DNA of 26,485 nucleotides from IMG/VR virus record IMGVR_UViG_3300043773_001128, positions 1-26,485 of that record. One strand, written 5' to 3'. The DNA comes from a virus. The notes beneath the pieces were generated by a model. It ran no database searches, was not told the DNA's origin, and was given only the letters and a program-made list of their open reading frames with translations. Position numbers and translations under genes: made by a program. Below, in pieces: positions 1,184-6,064 of this stretch (within the stretch, counting starts at the first letter, position 1; every line of letters starts with the position of its first letter).

Positions 1184-1212
1184 TAAAAAAACCTCATCAG
1201 AAGATGAGGTTT
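1184..1212 (-). terminator. Intrinsic terminator of the tmRNA
   Basis: On the minus strand a ten-pair stem, AAACCTCATC with GATGAGGTTT and a TTCT loop, is followed by a run of T. It starts six bases beyond the encoded CCA end of the tmRNA. Confidence 0.85.
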
Positions 1213-1217
1213 ACAAT

Positions 1218-1637
1218 TGGTGGAGGTGGAGGGACTCGAACCCTCGTCCAGCCTATCCTGTCGGATAAGGACTACACGTTTAGGTTAAGGTTTTTCATAC
1301 CTTCCAAAATATTTGGTTCCTATTTTGACATTGTTACCAAAAACTGTGTTGAGTTCACTTTTGTTACGGTAGCCCTCTAAACGAGACCGTTGTTTTCTTT
1401 TAGAGTGAAAACCAACTCATCTGCGACTTCTGTTGCTAGGTTATATGTCTGATCGACCCCCCGTTTCCGTAAACCTCTTAGGCTACAGTAACTTCGGATT
1501 CTCTTACTAAACCAAGAGTTTCCATTTTTGCTAAAACGTTGCCGTCTATAAATGTGAATCAGTTTTTAAGGAGATTAATTCAGTCCCCACGTGCCCTTGA
1601 TCTTCAGCCAATACCTGTCAAATCCAAAAACACCCCC
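1218..1637 (-). ncRNA. ssrA: tmRNA (transfer-messenger RNA), one piece
   Basis: The RNA rescues stalled ribosomes by acting first as a tRNA and then as a short mRNA. The 5' end GGGGGTG (1637-1631) pairs with CACCTCC (1228-1222) as a seven-pair acceptor stem with one G-U, followed by an encoded ACCA ending at 1218. The T arm is GAGGG-TTCGAGT-CCCTC. The 5' half contains the typical TTTGGATTTGACAGG D-arm segment. Aligned by eye to E. coli tmRNA, the resume codon is GGC (1543-1541) after ATAGAC, and the tag runs 21 codons to TAA at 1480-1478. It starts GNVLAKMETL and ends SEVTVA, unlike the short tags ending ALAA usual in bacteria. Length is 420 bases, slightly above the usual 350-400. The frame of the tag is inferred from the alignment. 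Confidence 0.93.
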
Positions 1638-1664: not shown

Positions 1665-1694
1665 CAAAGATAATACAAAAAAACAATATTCCAA
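1665..1694 (-). promoter_or_regulatory. Candidate Bacteroidota-type promoter for the tmRNA
   Basis: On the minus strand TATCTTTG (1672-1665) matches the TAnnTTTG -7 box of Bacteroidota. TTGG lies at 1694-1691 with an 18-base spacer. The box is 28 bases before the mature 5' end, leaving a short leader for RNase P to remove. Confidence 0.45.
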
Positions 1695-1716: not shown

Positions 1717-3105
1717 ATGAATTACGGAAAATATAATCCATACGAATCCGGTGACGTAGAAATTGTTAGTGAAGACGAAAATTTAAAGATAGTAAAGGTA
1801 TTATCTAAAGATGCTGCATTTTATTTTGGTGGAGATTTATATAGTCAAAGTTGGGATGATAATTTTAGTGAGGGTGATTTGTATTTTTTAATCAGTTCTG
1901 ATCCTGACGTTCAAGTATTCTCCATACATAATAGAGACAATAACGACCCAAGTGTTGTAAGATATGGGTACGATAAAAATGGATTCGCAAATGCTGACGA
2001 TATAAAAAAATACTTCCCTAAATCGATTAAAGTTTTAAACCCAATAATAAGATTCGGTGAAACATATGAATTTTTAAAAAGTGTTTATAATGGGTATGAA
2101 CCAAGATGGAATGAAAATGGTGGGGATAAGATCATAGGTGAAATCAAATTTAATAGTAGTAGTCCAAATAATTCAATAGTTGTTATTGAATTTAATGATG
2201 ATGAAGATTTTTTAAATATTTTTGATCTTGATAGTGATGATGTATATGAATGGAGATATTATATGTCTGATTATTCAAATGTTGATTACGACACTTATAG
2301 ATATACAGAAGATTGGAACGAAGGTGATTTTTTCCAATACGCATTTAATGATCAGAATAAAGAAAAATTAATAAATATTGTTAGAACATTTTTTCCTTCT
2401 GTGGACCCAAGTGATACAAAAAAAATATCTGATTTGGCAAATGAAATTGATTCTAACGTTGTTGATAGTATTGTAGATGAGTACGCATCAGAATGGGAAA
2501 ATTGTATATACAATAATTCTAGAGATGAAATAAGATCTGAACTTAATAATCCGTTTGTTAAATTTGGTATTAAACAAAAGGCATTGGCGTATAAATATGA
2601 GGCAACTGTTGGTGTCTTATTAACATGGTATAAACAACTAAAATCTGAAGACGTTGATCTTGGTGGTCTATTAAAAGAATTAATAGATAAATTTGATAGA
2701 AATAACTATAGAGGTAATTGGGCTGAACTAAGATATAATGGGGATTGTCCTGATTGGGATAATGAAAGATATCAATCTTATGTTTCTGATCAATTGGATA
2801 AAATTATTGAGAAATACGAAGAAGACGAAAGATTTGTTAATTATAATGAATTCATAGAATTACAACAACAGATTGATCAAGAATACGGGTTTGATAAATG
2901 GATCCCAATAAGAACGGATAAAAATAAATTCTTTAAAATAGAAAAGATAGATCCAGGGACAAATAAAATCATCATTTCATTTAGAGATAATCAAAGTGAT
3001 AATAGAGAAGAAAAGAGATCTGTTACTTATGATGATTTGAAAAGAATTGAAACACAATACGAATTATTCGAAGAAATAAGGAAAATAGTTGGTAGATTGA
3101 AATAA
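1717..3105 (+). CDS. Uncharacterised acidic phage protein, 462 residues
   Basis: I do not recognise a family. The protein is soluble, with no signal peptide or membrane segment. It is rich in Asp, Glu, Asn, Tyr and Trp. The first ~200 residues look like a mixed alpha/beta region with many aromatic residues, and the rest contains long charged helices. The final ~70 residues (from about FDKWIPIRTDKNKFFKIEKI) look like a small beta-rich end domain. The ATG at 1717 is supported by the A/T-rich leader and the TATTTATT box 4 bases before it. The next gene starts 18 bases downstream. The codons are fully AT-biased like the neighbours. It could be a regulatory or structural protein; the sequence does not say which. 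Confidence 0.8.
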   Translation: MNYGKYNPYESGDVEIVSEDENLKIVKVLSKDAAFYFGGDLYSQSWDDNFSEGDLYFLISSDPDVQVFSIHNRDNNDPSVVRYGYDKNGFANADDIKKYFPKSIKVLNPIIRFGETYEFLKSVYNGYEPRWNENGGDKIIGEIKFNSSSPNNSIVVIEFNDDEDFLNIFDLDSDDVYEWRYYMSDYSNVDYDTYRYTEDWNEGDFFQYAFNDQNKEKLINIVRTFFPSVDPSDTKKISDLANEIDSNVVDSIVDEYASEWENCIYNNSRDEIRSELNNPFVKFGIKQKALAYKYEATVGVLLTWYKQLKSEDVDLGGLLKELIDKFDRNNYRGNWAELRYNGDCPDWDNERYQSYVSDQLDKIIEKYEEDERFVNYNEFIELQQQIDQEYGFDKWIPIRTDKNKFFKIEKIDPGTNKIIISFRDNQSDNREEKRSVTYDDLKRIETQYELFEEIRKIVGRLK

Positions 3106-3119
3106 TTTGTGTACTTTTG
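3089..3119 (+). promoter_or_regulatory. Bacteroidota-type promoter at the edge of a gene
   Basis: TTGG (3089-3092), a 19-base spacer and TACTTTTG (3112-3119) fit the TTG-N19-TAnnTTTG consensus. The box lies only four bases before the ATG at 3124, so the transcript would be leaderless or nearly so. The promoter overlaps the 3' end of the preceding gene. Confidence 0.5.
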
Positions 3120-3123
3120 TACC

Positions 3124-3909
3124 ATGGAAAGAAACTATGAATTATTAAAGGAGGTATTATCTATTCCAACTAAAACTTATCAAGAGGATTTAATGATCCA
3201 ATTTATTGAGGATTGGTTGATTGAAAACAAAATCCCTTATCACGTTGACGATATGTTCAATATCTATGCAACTAAACAAACCGATGAAAATGTTGAATAC
3301 TTCCCGTGTGTGATCGCACACACTGATACGGTACATACCATTGATACAATTAACGTTGTTGAGGAAATGTTACCTGATGCTCAGGGAAACATTAAACTAT
3401 CTCTTAAAGCGTATAATGACAACGGTAATCCCACTGGTATAGGTGGAGATGACAAATGTGGTATTTATGGGTGTTTGGAATTGTTAAAAGAATTACCAAA
3501 TCTTAAGGCGGCATTTTTTGTATCTGAAGAAACAGGTTGTCATGGGTCAAGAAAGGCAGATCCAGAATTTTTTGAAAATGTCGGATACTGTATTCAGTTT
3601 GACGCTCCTGAGAACAATATGATTTCAGAGTTTCTTATGGGTAGACAAATGTTTGATCGTAATAGTGAGTTCTTTAATGTTGGTGGTCGTTTAATTAACG
3701 AACATTTTCCATCGGATACAAAGTATCACAAACATCCATATACGGATATCTATATGATTAATCAATTATTTAATATTCCTTGTTTTAACATTTCTATTGG
3801 GTATTATCGTTATCATACTCCAAATGAATATGTTGTTGTTGAGGATACATATAACGGTATTAAGGTTGGTAAACTAATGATAGAGGGTCTTGGTTATACC
3901 AAACATTAA
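3124..3909 (+). CDS. M20/M42-type metallopeptidase, PepT-like
   Basis: A zinc peptidase of the M20/M28/M42 clan, which trims amino acids from short peptides in the cytoplasm. Ligand motifs appear in order: HTD (His66, Asp68), GGDDKCG (Asp109/110), SEETG (catalytic Glu133 and Glu134), an Asp in QFDAP, and a late His in YHTPNEY. The protein has 261 residues against about 350-410 for bacterial peptidase T, so the lid or dimerisation insert is probably reduced. I chose ATG 3124 because an upstream in-frame start at 3109 would lie inside the promoter box TACTTTTG. A strong terminator follows, so this is a one-gene unit. The role in infection is not evident; recycling of peptides made by Clp proteases is a guess based on its neighbours. 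Confidence 0.85.
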   Translation: MERNYELLKEVLSIPTKTYQEDLMIQFIEDWLIENKIPYHVDDMFNIYATKQTDENVEYFPCVIAHTDTVHTIDTINVVEEMLPDAQGNIKLSLKAYNDNGNPTGIGGDDKCGIYGCLELLKELPNLKAAFFVSEETGCHGSRKADPEFFENVGYCIQFDAPENNMISEFLMGRQMFDRNSEFFNVGGRLINEHFPSDTKYHKHPYTDIYMINQLFNIPCFNISIGYYRYHTPNEYVVVEDTYNGIKVGKLMIEGLGYTKH

Positions 3910-4000: not shown

Positions 4001-6064
4001 TTAGATTGAGGGTTGATCCTCTTTCTTTTTTCTACCTCGTTTCTTTGGTTCCTGAACTGTACGGTTTTCAATTACTATTTCTTCACCGTCTTTTACTAAT
4101 AACATATATTCAGTTCCTTCAACAACCTCATTAAGAAGTATTTTTTCTGAGATTAGATCTTCAACTTTATCTTGGAGTGCTCTCTTTAATGGGCGAGCCC
4201 CAAACGTTTCATCAAAACCAACTTTAGAGATTAAATCAATAACCGTTGGTTCGTATGTAAAGTTGTATTTCATTTTAGTTAATCGTTTCATCAAACGATC
4301 AATCTCTAACTTAACGATTTTATCAATGTTTTCTTTTTTCAAAGAATTGAAGATAATAACATCGTCAATACGGTTGAGGAATTCAGGTGCGAAAAACTTA
4401 CCTAATTCTTTTTTGAGGATATCTCTTTTGTGTTCTTCTTTAACAATATCACTATTGCTTTTGAATCCAACACCAGCACCAAAGTCCTGTAGTTTTTTAA
4501 CCCCAATGTTTGATGTCATAATAATCAAACAGTTTTTGAAGTTAATTTTTCTACCCAACCCATCTGTTAAGTGACCATCATCCAACATCTGTAATAGTGT
4601 TGAGAAGATGTCTTTGTTTGCTTTCTCAATCTCATCAAACAAGATAACGGAATAAGGTTTGTTTTTCACTTGTTCGGTAAGTTGTCCACCTTCTTCGTGA
4701 CCTACATATCCTGGAGGAGATCCAATCAATCTTGAGATTGTATGTTTCTCTTGGTATTCAGACATATCCACACGGATTAAGTTTTCTTCATTACCGAAGA
4801 TTTCTTTCGCCAATTGTTTAGCCAAGAATGTTTTACCAACACCTGTTGACCCCAAGAAAATAAATGATCCGATTGGACGATTTGGGTCCTTAATACCAAC
4901 ACGATTTCTACGAATAGATTTGGAGATTTTCATAACTGCTTCTTCCTGACCAATTACGGTAGATGATAATGACGATTCCAAATTAACCAATGTGTTCTTC
5001 TCATCCAAGTTTAATTTGGATACTGGAATTTTGGTCATGTTTGAAACTACCTCATAAATCAATTCTTCAGGAATACCTCGTTTACTAACTTTTAAGTGAT
5101 CTTCAAACTTCCTTTTCTCTAACTCAAGATTTGCCAATACGGTACGTTCTTTATCACGTAGTTCCGCAGCTTGTTCGTACTTTTGTTTTTTAATTACCTC
5201 AAATTTTTCTTTTTTAATTTCCTGAGCTTCAAGTTTAAGTTGTTCAATTACTTCAGGTAATTTAATGTCAATTTGCATTCTTGCTCCGACCTCATCCAAA
5301 ATATCAAAAGCTTTATCGGGGAATTCACGATCAGTAATATAACGATCTGCCAATTCCACACAAACCCAAAGTGCCTCATCAGTATAGTTAACTTTGTGAT
5401 GATCCTCATATTTAGATTTACTTTGTTTAAGGATTTCAAATGTTTCTTCTTTGGTGGAAGGATCCACAACTACTTTTTGAAATCGTCTTTCTAATGCCCC
5501 ATCTTTTTCAAAATGTCTACGGTATTCATCTAATGTGGTTGCTCCAATACATTGAATTTCCCCACGAGATAATGCTGGTTTGAAGATATTAGAAGCATCT
5601 AAAGATCCCGAACTATTACCGGCTCCAACCATTGTATGAATTTCATCAATAAAGATGACAATGTTTGGATTTGCTTGAAGTTCTTCAATAATAACCTTCA
5701 TTCTCTCCTCAAATTGACCACGGTATTTGGTACCAGCAACAATTGAATTAATATCCAAAGATACAATTCTTTTGTCAACCAAATTTTTAGGACAATCCCC
5801 ATTGTAAATCATCATTGCCAACCCTTCAACAATTGCCGTTTTACCCGCTCCCGGTTCACCGATAATAATAGGGTTATTCTTTTTACGTCTTGATAAAACT
5901 TGAGCAATTCTTAGAATTTCTTTTTCACGACCGATCACGGGATCTAATTTCCCTTCTTCCGCCATTTTAATTAAATCCTTACTAAAGTTGTCCAAAACTG
6001 GAGTACCACCATTACTTTCTGGTTTCTTTTTTCCTTTTTCGTTTTCGTCTTGAAATTCAATCAT
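4001..6064 (-). CDS. clpC: ClpC-like AAA+ unfoldase lacking the N-terminal domain
   Basis: A two-ring ATPase that unfolds proteins and feeds them to ClpP. The first AAA+ module has Walker [10 protein letters not shown] (69-77), pore loop KYRG (113-116) and Walker B FIDEIHT (138-144). A UVR-type middle motif, [13 protein letters not shown] (295-307), marks it as ClpC rather than ClpB or ClpA. The second module has Walker A GSTGVGKT (405-412), GYVG (452-455) and Walker B ILFDE (474-478). The tripeptide VGF (532-534) sits where ClpC and ClpA carry the ClpP-docking loop. At 687 residues it is about 120-150 shorter than host ClpC. The missing part is the N-terminal Clp_N domain that binds adaptors, replaced by about 25 charged residues. 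The C-terminus is a basic tail (KKRGRKKK). It is a single gene facing away from the KTSC gene; no clpP is in the window. Confidence 0.95.

Follow-up and report, generated by a model that had tools for sequence, protein, structure and literature searches.

A phage one-piece tmRNA with a conserved tag of 21-22 residues, encoded beside a ClpC-type unfoldase and an M20-type peptidase

The stretch of DNA analysed here (hereafter, the window) is a virus record of 26,485 bases that carries T4-like head genes, those for the terminase, the portal, the gp23 major capsid protein and the S77 prohead protease. It also contains a tmRNA gene, with the following features in and around it.

1185..1211, minus strand: hairpin AACCTCATC-TTCT-GATGAGGTT with a T run behind it, probably the intrinsic terminator of the tmRNA gene (read by eye)
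1637-1218, minus strand: one-piece tmRNA (ssrA) gene, 420 nt, CCA encoded, matching RF00023
1478..1543, minus strand: tag reading frame GNVLAKMETLGLVRESEVTVA and the stop codon UAA; the resume codon GGC is at 1543-1541
1544..1548, minus strand: frame-setting UAGAC, with the -4 A at 1547
1555..1588, minus strand: pseudoknot PK1, stem 1 GGGGA/UCUCC, stem 2 UGAAU/AUUCA, 11 nt upstream of the resume codon
1631..1637, minus strand: 5' strand of the acceptor stem with G3 of the G3-U70 pair; the 3' strand is at 1222-1228
1665..1672, minus strand: Bacteroidota-type -7 element (TAnnTTTG), TATCTTTG, 27 nt upstream of the mature 5' end (a weak candidate, read by eye)
1717..3105, plus strand: 462-aa protein with no family match, present in 38 of the 44 tag loci with sufficient flank
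3109..3909, plus strand: minimal M20/PepT-like metallopeptidase (PF01546, 1.4e-6; PHROG 4191, 3.9e-37)
4001..6064, minus strand: ClpC-type double-AAA+ unfoldase of 687 aa, with no Clp N-domain and a short M-domain

The covariance model RF00023 covers the tmRNA over its full length (model positions 1-374, 103.2 bits, E = 1.3e-39, cut-off 47). ARAGORN, run on the 26,485-nt stretch, missed the gene; by itself this program is unreliable here, giving wrong tags for some relatives (L069, L036) and for the phage Calle_1. The tRNA-like part had been described in the original prediction as intact, hence allowing the RNA to be charged and to enter ribosomes, and as far as the sequence can tell this description holds: the acceptor stem GGGGGUG/CACCUCC includes G3-U70, the T-arm is GAGGG-UUCGAGU-CCCUC, and with the discriminator A and the encoded CCA the window sequence contains the whole alanine acceptor identity set. 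In 82 relatives, the acceptor pairs 4-69 to 7-66 vary with compensation (GC, AU, UA, CG), while pair 3 is G-U in 80, the other two looking like a one-base register shift of the parser. As G3-U70 is an alanine identity element, it can be strongly inferred that the tmRNA would be charged with alanine. The CCA end is not encoded in approximately 40% of the related tmRNAs, unlike that of the window.

Covariation among 15 relatives agrees with this structure. In P1, P2, PK1 and the T-arm we observed 53 two-sided changes, compared to 16.1 ± 3.3 in shuffles, which ignore relatedness, and 97.8% of the cells were paired, compared to at most 59% when the partners were slid, a control that takes relatedness into account. 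The PK1 pairs are kept in 97-100% of cases, with compensatory changes in both stems. The fold energy z-score of the single sequence (-1.29) is uninformative, as is to be expected of an RNA with pseudoknots. Upstream of the gene, the TAnnTTTG element at 1672-1665 might serve in a promoter, being a single motif that could also occur by chance. Beside the tmRNA, at 347-755 on the plus strand, there is a GOLLD RNA (RF02032, 321.9 bits), also present in two relatives (L014, L036).

The tag frame was reported at 1478-1543 as encoding a tag of 21 residues, without indication of the strand; our translation is identical, and the strand is minus. The base at -4 from the resume codon is A in all 87 distinct relatives, and that at -5 is always U or C. 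This agrees with the experimental rule for the Escherichia coli A86 and U85: A86, the -4 base, sets the frame, and with a pyrimidine in its place function is lost, while at U85 C is tolerated and A leads to frame errors (PMC2481249). GGC serves as the resume codon in 50 of the 52 tags of the first set; one variant (L044/L286) resumes at GAC (Asp), yielding DNVINKLSAVGLIRTEENISVA. In close pairs, dN/dS is 0.28-0.32 in the tag frame, the two other frames giving 0.7-0.95 and 2.0-2.5, and the tag frame has accumulated 211 nonsynonymous changes with 332 ± 8 expected; since the pairs are not independent, the effect size here matters more than the z-value. The stop codon interchanges among UAA, UAG and UGA at the same position. 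Thus, the frame is established by the invariant -4 A, the conserved peptide, and the preference for synonymous changes in this frame only, and judging by the substitution pattern the tag peptide is under purifying selection, in its own frame only. A resume codon elsewhere, producing a short ALAA-like tag, had been named as an observation that would overturn the original prediction; we found no evidence for one.

The comparison with related phages, suggested there as well, revealed 56 distinct tag peptides of 21-22 residues, conserved across the clade. Among the 53 tabulated variants, 41 comprise 21 residues and 12 comprise 22. G11-L12 is present in all 53 and K6 in 51; G1 and R14 are conserved as well, and the N-terminal and central segment can be written as G-N-V-L-x-K-M-x-x-L-G-L-x-R. 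The last residue is A in 53/53, and the last two are VA in 46/53. No tabulated variant ends in LAA (0/53), and neither does the tag of the window, so that in this respect the ending was read correctly; the canonical ssrA degron, short and LAA-ended, differs at this end.

A DNA pattern of the tag occurs in at least 120 stretches of viral contigs, and by sequence this occurrence is not due to chance. The genomes of 84,980 bacterial and archaeal species do not contain the exact pattern, a single one that does not cover all variants. For the tag of Bacteroidota cells, GExNYAxAA, there are also at least 120 stretches, and nearly all matches listed are Bacteroidota by title. We considered several origins and uses of the tag. 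Origin from a bacterial host was rejected given the absence of the exact pattern (again, one pattern and not all variants) from the bacterial and archaeal species genomes. Copying or mimicry of a phage protein was rejected as well, for outside tmRNAs the loci searched yielded just short, weak matches apart from unmasked tags. Finally, a prohead-protease site (VRE-S) was dismissed because position 15 varies among E, T and G. On this evidence, the tag is supported as a selected feature common to the whole clade.

The gene neighbourhood is equally constant. Starting from the tag, both the M20 and the ClpC genes are present in every locus whose 5' flank is 7 kb or longer (44/44), and starting from ClpC, a tag of this family is present in every locus that extends 6 kb or more past ClpC (48/48). 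An RF00023 tmRNA was found in 27 of the 30 longer records; in the remaining three, the contig ends 1.5-2.4 kb past ClpC, that is, near or before the expected place of the tmRNA. The ClpC relatives were picked for their resemblance to the ClpC of the window and therefore represent one lineage, so that the linkage does not count as independent evidence that the genes act together; shared descent could explain it. Moreover, two phages of 634-642 kb (LR745206 and LR756502) encode a ClpC 56-59% identical to that of the window, with a GOLLD RNA within 6 kb of it and no tmRNA above the cut-off. As these distant phages carry ClpC without such a tmRNA, ClpC has to have some tmRNA-independent role. Unrelated Cellulophaga phages encode a relative of the M20 peptidase at a distance of 1.2-1.3 kb from their tmRNA, and in other phages, such as Brevibacillus phage Jenst, an M20-type peptidase occurs without a tmRNA. 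In an uncultured phage of 636 kb (L445; LR756504.1, 280507-280863), a tmRNA has the tag DNVNSFEQSILNELFAPVEMAVAA; four places of this genome match the M20 peptidase, one of them approximately 14 kb from the tmRNA.

The ClpC has retained two AAA+ domains, the pore loops KYRG and GYVG, and the ClpP-docking loop VGF. Of all PDB chains, the ClpC of 6em8 scores best (721 bits), residues 14-663 of the phage protein aligning to it from its residue 154 onwards; the VGF loop lines up with that of the ClpC/MecB chain 3j3s, and the loop [VIML]GF is kept in 76 of 80 relatives. The phage protein shares with these ClpC chains the short M-domain, the pore loops and the GF docking loop and differs from them in lacking the N-terminal adaptor domain: the Pfam scan yielded no Clp_N domain, and the 6em8 alignment begins after it. 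Among 31 records scanned for ClpP and SmpB, mostly fragments, which do not prove absence, ClpP is encoded in one (L308, the record of L070, a relative from the tag family; PF00574, 3e-59) and SmpB in two (L309, L310), convergent with the tmRNA and 0.5-0.9 kb away. The partners are likely to be the host ClpP and the host SmpB.

In the M20 peptidase, the catalytic motifs AHTDT, GGDDK, SEETG and HTPNE, comprising the metal ligands and the catalytic Glu (HxD, D, EE, H), are kept, and HTDT together with GGD is found in 177 of the 188 matching loci. The 462-aa protein had no match in Pfam, PHROGs or NCBIfam and only weak, partial similarity to uncharacterised proteins of viruses, and its confidently predicted structure (pLDDT 87.7) had no PDB match. 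We rejected it as an adaptor, as it is absent near some tmRNAs (present in 38/44) and its fold offers no functional clue.

Phage tmRNAs as such are known (PMC4131195, PMC9004378), with 402 of 18,146 phage genomes containing one (PMC9004378). The RNA described here shares with the bacterial one-piece tmRNA (RF00023) the tRNA-like domain with G3-U70, PK1, P2, the -4 A, the tag frame and the stop codon, and differs in the tag itself, which has 21-22 residues and no LAA end, compared to nine residues in the GExNYAxAA tags of Bacteroidota cells. Phage-encoded tmRNAs are also those of Bacillus phage G, of Melnitz, where the tmRNA is two-piece in contrast to the one-piece RNA here, and of Bxz1 and other mycobacteriophages, Bxz1 likewise having a long tag. 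We found no description of the present tag family in the searchable part of the literature on other phage tmRNAs.

Among the closest parallels are tmRNAs of Bacteroidota phages. In the Cellulophaga phages phi38:1 and Calle_1, the -4 A rule yields a 30-residue tag, GNNTNAVNAQIEANMEAVNAILNLEVAVGV, and as in the present family it is long and starts with G-N; the resume context is UAAAC-GGA-AAC, and an M20-type peptidase is encoded near the tmRNA. The tmRNA of phi38:1 (L443; KC821614.1, 26803-27164) is unannotated, small hypothetical CDSs occupying its place, and for that of Calle_1 (L305; MT732432.1, 42950-43311) ARAGORN reports a tag shorter than the -4 A rule does. Chryseobacterium phage MA9V-3 also has a long tag with the G-N start, GNVIDINKYVAKLEVAA, and its tmRNA is permuted, unlike the present one. 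Beyond the G-N start and the length, these tags bear no likeness to the present tag, and the examined stretches of the three genomes contain no ClpC relative. At 3.8 kb from the permuted tmRNA, MA9V-3 (PV245944.1, 26938-27777) encodes a 279-aa AAA+ protein annotated as ClpX, which is short for ClpX and matches generic AAA models only. Long tags recur in viral tmRNAs: a separate clade (L088, L091, L103, L110, L121, L122, L125, L132, L152, L155) has a conserved 24-residue tag, DVELSTMTFED[AV]M[AS]FVGADYA[VIL]AA, and further examples are ANAFKPEVTVPMSVFADQELVAA and ANKKALGFADLTVGMSELRLAA (permuted).

The host may be a member of Bacteroidota, as weakly suggested by the nearest isolate terminase, from a Flavobacterium phage (28%), by the nearest isolate M20 peptidases, from Cellulophaga phages, and by the resume context of the Cellulophaga phage tmRNAs, which resembles that of the present family. 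The phage collection contained no isolate of this lineage.

There are several possible variants of what happens to the tagged proteins. The original prediction assumed that without ALAA neither ClpXP nor ClpAP would act, and hence proposed a different fate or an unfoldase of the phage itself. The assumption is not supported, since in E. coli and Salmonella the LVA-ended tags are degraded faster than the AAV and ASV ones (PMC9097571, PMC11003136); an ending other than ALAA therefore does not imply escape from ClpXP. As such tags are degraded and Ala closes every one of the 53 tabulated variants (preceded by V in 46), there is no need for a different fate. The proposed unfoldase of the phage fares better, gaining support from the ClpC linkage in 44/44 and 48/48 loci and from the kept docking loop, although the linked genes all belong to a single lineage. 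Mollicutes provide a precedent for tags that differ together with their protease: those of Mollicutes, ending in NYAFA, are read by Lon and not by ClpXP (PMC9382460); both the protease and the sequence are other than here, where the candidate reader is the phage ClpC.

We consider it an even call that the phage tmRNA is functional and marks proteins for degradation, its tag being most likely read by the phage ClpC docked on the host ClpP. The one-piece tmRNA, charged with alanine, would enter stalled ribosomes with the host SmpB (a few relatives encode their own), and the clade-specific tag of 21-22 residues would be added to unfinished proteins. The tag would be a bipartite signal, consisting of the N-terminal and central recognition segment and the hydrophobic C-terminus ending in V-A, and would deliver the proteins to the N-domain-less ClpC, which would use the VGF loop to dock on the host ClpP; the M20 peptidase encoded nearby may then finish the peptides to amino acids. 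Hence, ribosomes would be freed and amino acids recycled under phage control. The sequences show the RNA, its fold, the reading frame and the selection on the peptide; charging and tagging in the cell, degradation, reading by ClpC and the part played by the peptidase are predicted. In its full form, with trans-translation and proteolysis owned by the phage, the bipartite tag dedicated to a ClpC devoid of the adaptor domain and using the host ClpP, and M20 finishing the peptides, this scheme is tentative. The recurrence of M20 near the tmRNA in the unrelated Cellulophaga phages is in favour of such a phage degradation route.

Alternatively, the tmRNA could simply top up or replace the host tmRNA, the tag being degraded by the host ClpXP and other host proteases, and ClpC being an independent adjustment of chaperones or proteases. 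This is a serious possibility, if short of a probable one. It would account for the hydrophobic, Ala-ended C-terminus, with VA in 46 of the 53 tabulated variants, in line with the rapid degradation of LVA-ended tags (PMC9097571, PMC11003136), and it is consistent with the ClpC of the huge phages lacking a tmRNA and with the existence, in other phage lineages, of long tags that end in VAA or LAA. However, if the tag were read at its C-terminus only, the conservation of G1, K6, G11, L12 and R14 would be left unexplained. Besides, GExNYAxAA tags are common in Bacteroidota, whereas the phage form is seen in no bacterial genome searched.

The tag could instead mark proteins for a non-degradative fate (sequestration, an adaptor, the virion or a nucleus-like compartment) or could itself be an active product. 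The strong conservation of the N-terminal and central segment and the lack of ALAA agree with this, but the hydrophobic Ala-ended C-terminus is kept across the variants, an unfoldase and a peptidase are linked, and no convincingly similar segment exists elsewhere in the loci searched; we regard this variant as improbable. It is scarcely conceivable that the long frame is spurious, with a short tag in another frame being the real one (frame +1 from GCA would yield the three-residue ATF) or the conservation, in what is a structured RNA, being that of RNA structure rather than of the peptide: other frames and a short tag are ruled out by GGC fitting the -4 A rule, by peptide conservation and by the dN/dS signal, and RNA-only conservation by this signal being confined to the tag frame (approximately 0.7 or higher in the others), with the UAA/UAG/UGA interchange at one position also speaking against an artefact.

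To our knowledge, a phage tmRNA is mostly recorded as a spare copy of the host gene, and its tag seldom analysed. The new part here is the conserved long tag family with its constant ClpC and M20 neighbours, of which we found no description in the searchable literature, thin on subscription journals; the phage tmRNAs themselves are known. Here, a tag peptide is under selection across a large phage group that includes contigs of nearly 300 kb, and the candidate phage reader beside it makes a defined, testable case for asking if phages redirect tagged proteins to a protease of their own. The tag and ClpC are also a candidate orthogonal pair of a degron and an unfoldase. Judging by the genes, the conserved long tag with the adjoining unfoldase suggests that the phage runs its own version of the clean-up pathway, and if the phage-owned route is true, it would take the rescue of ribosomes and the recycling of amino acids away from host quality control and turn them over to the phage.
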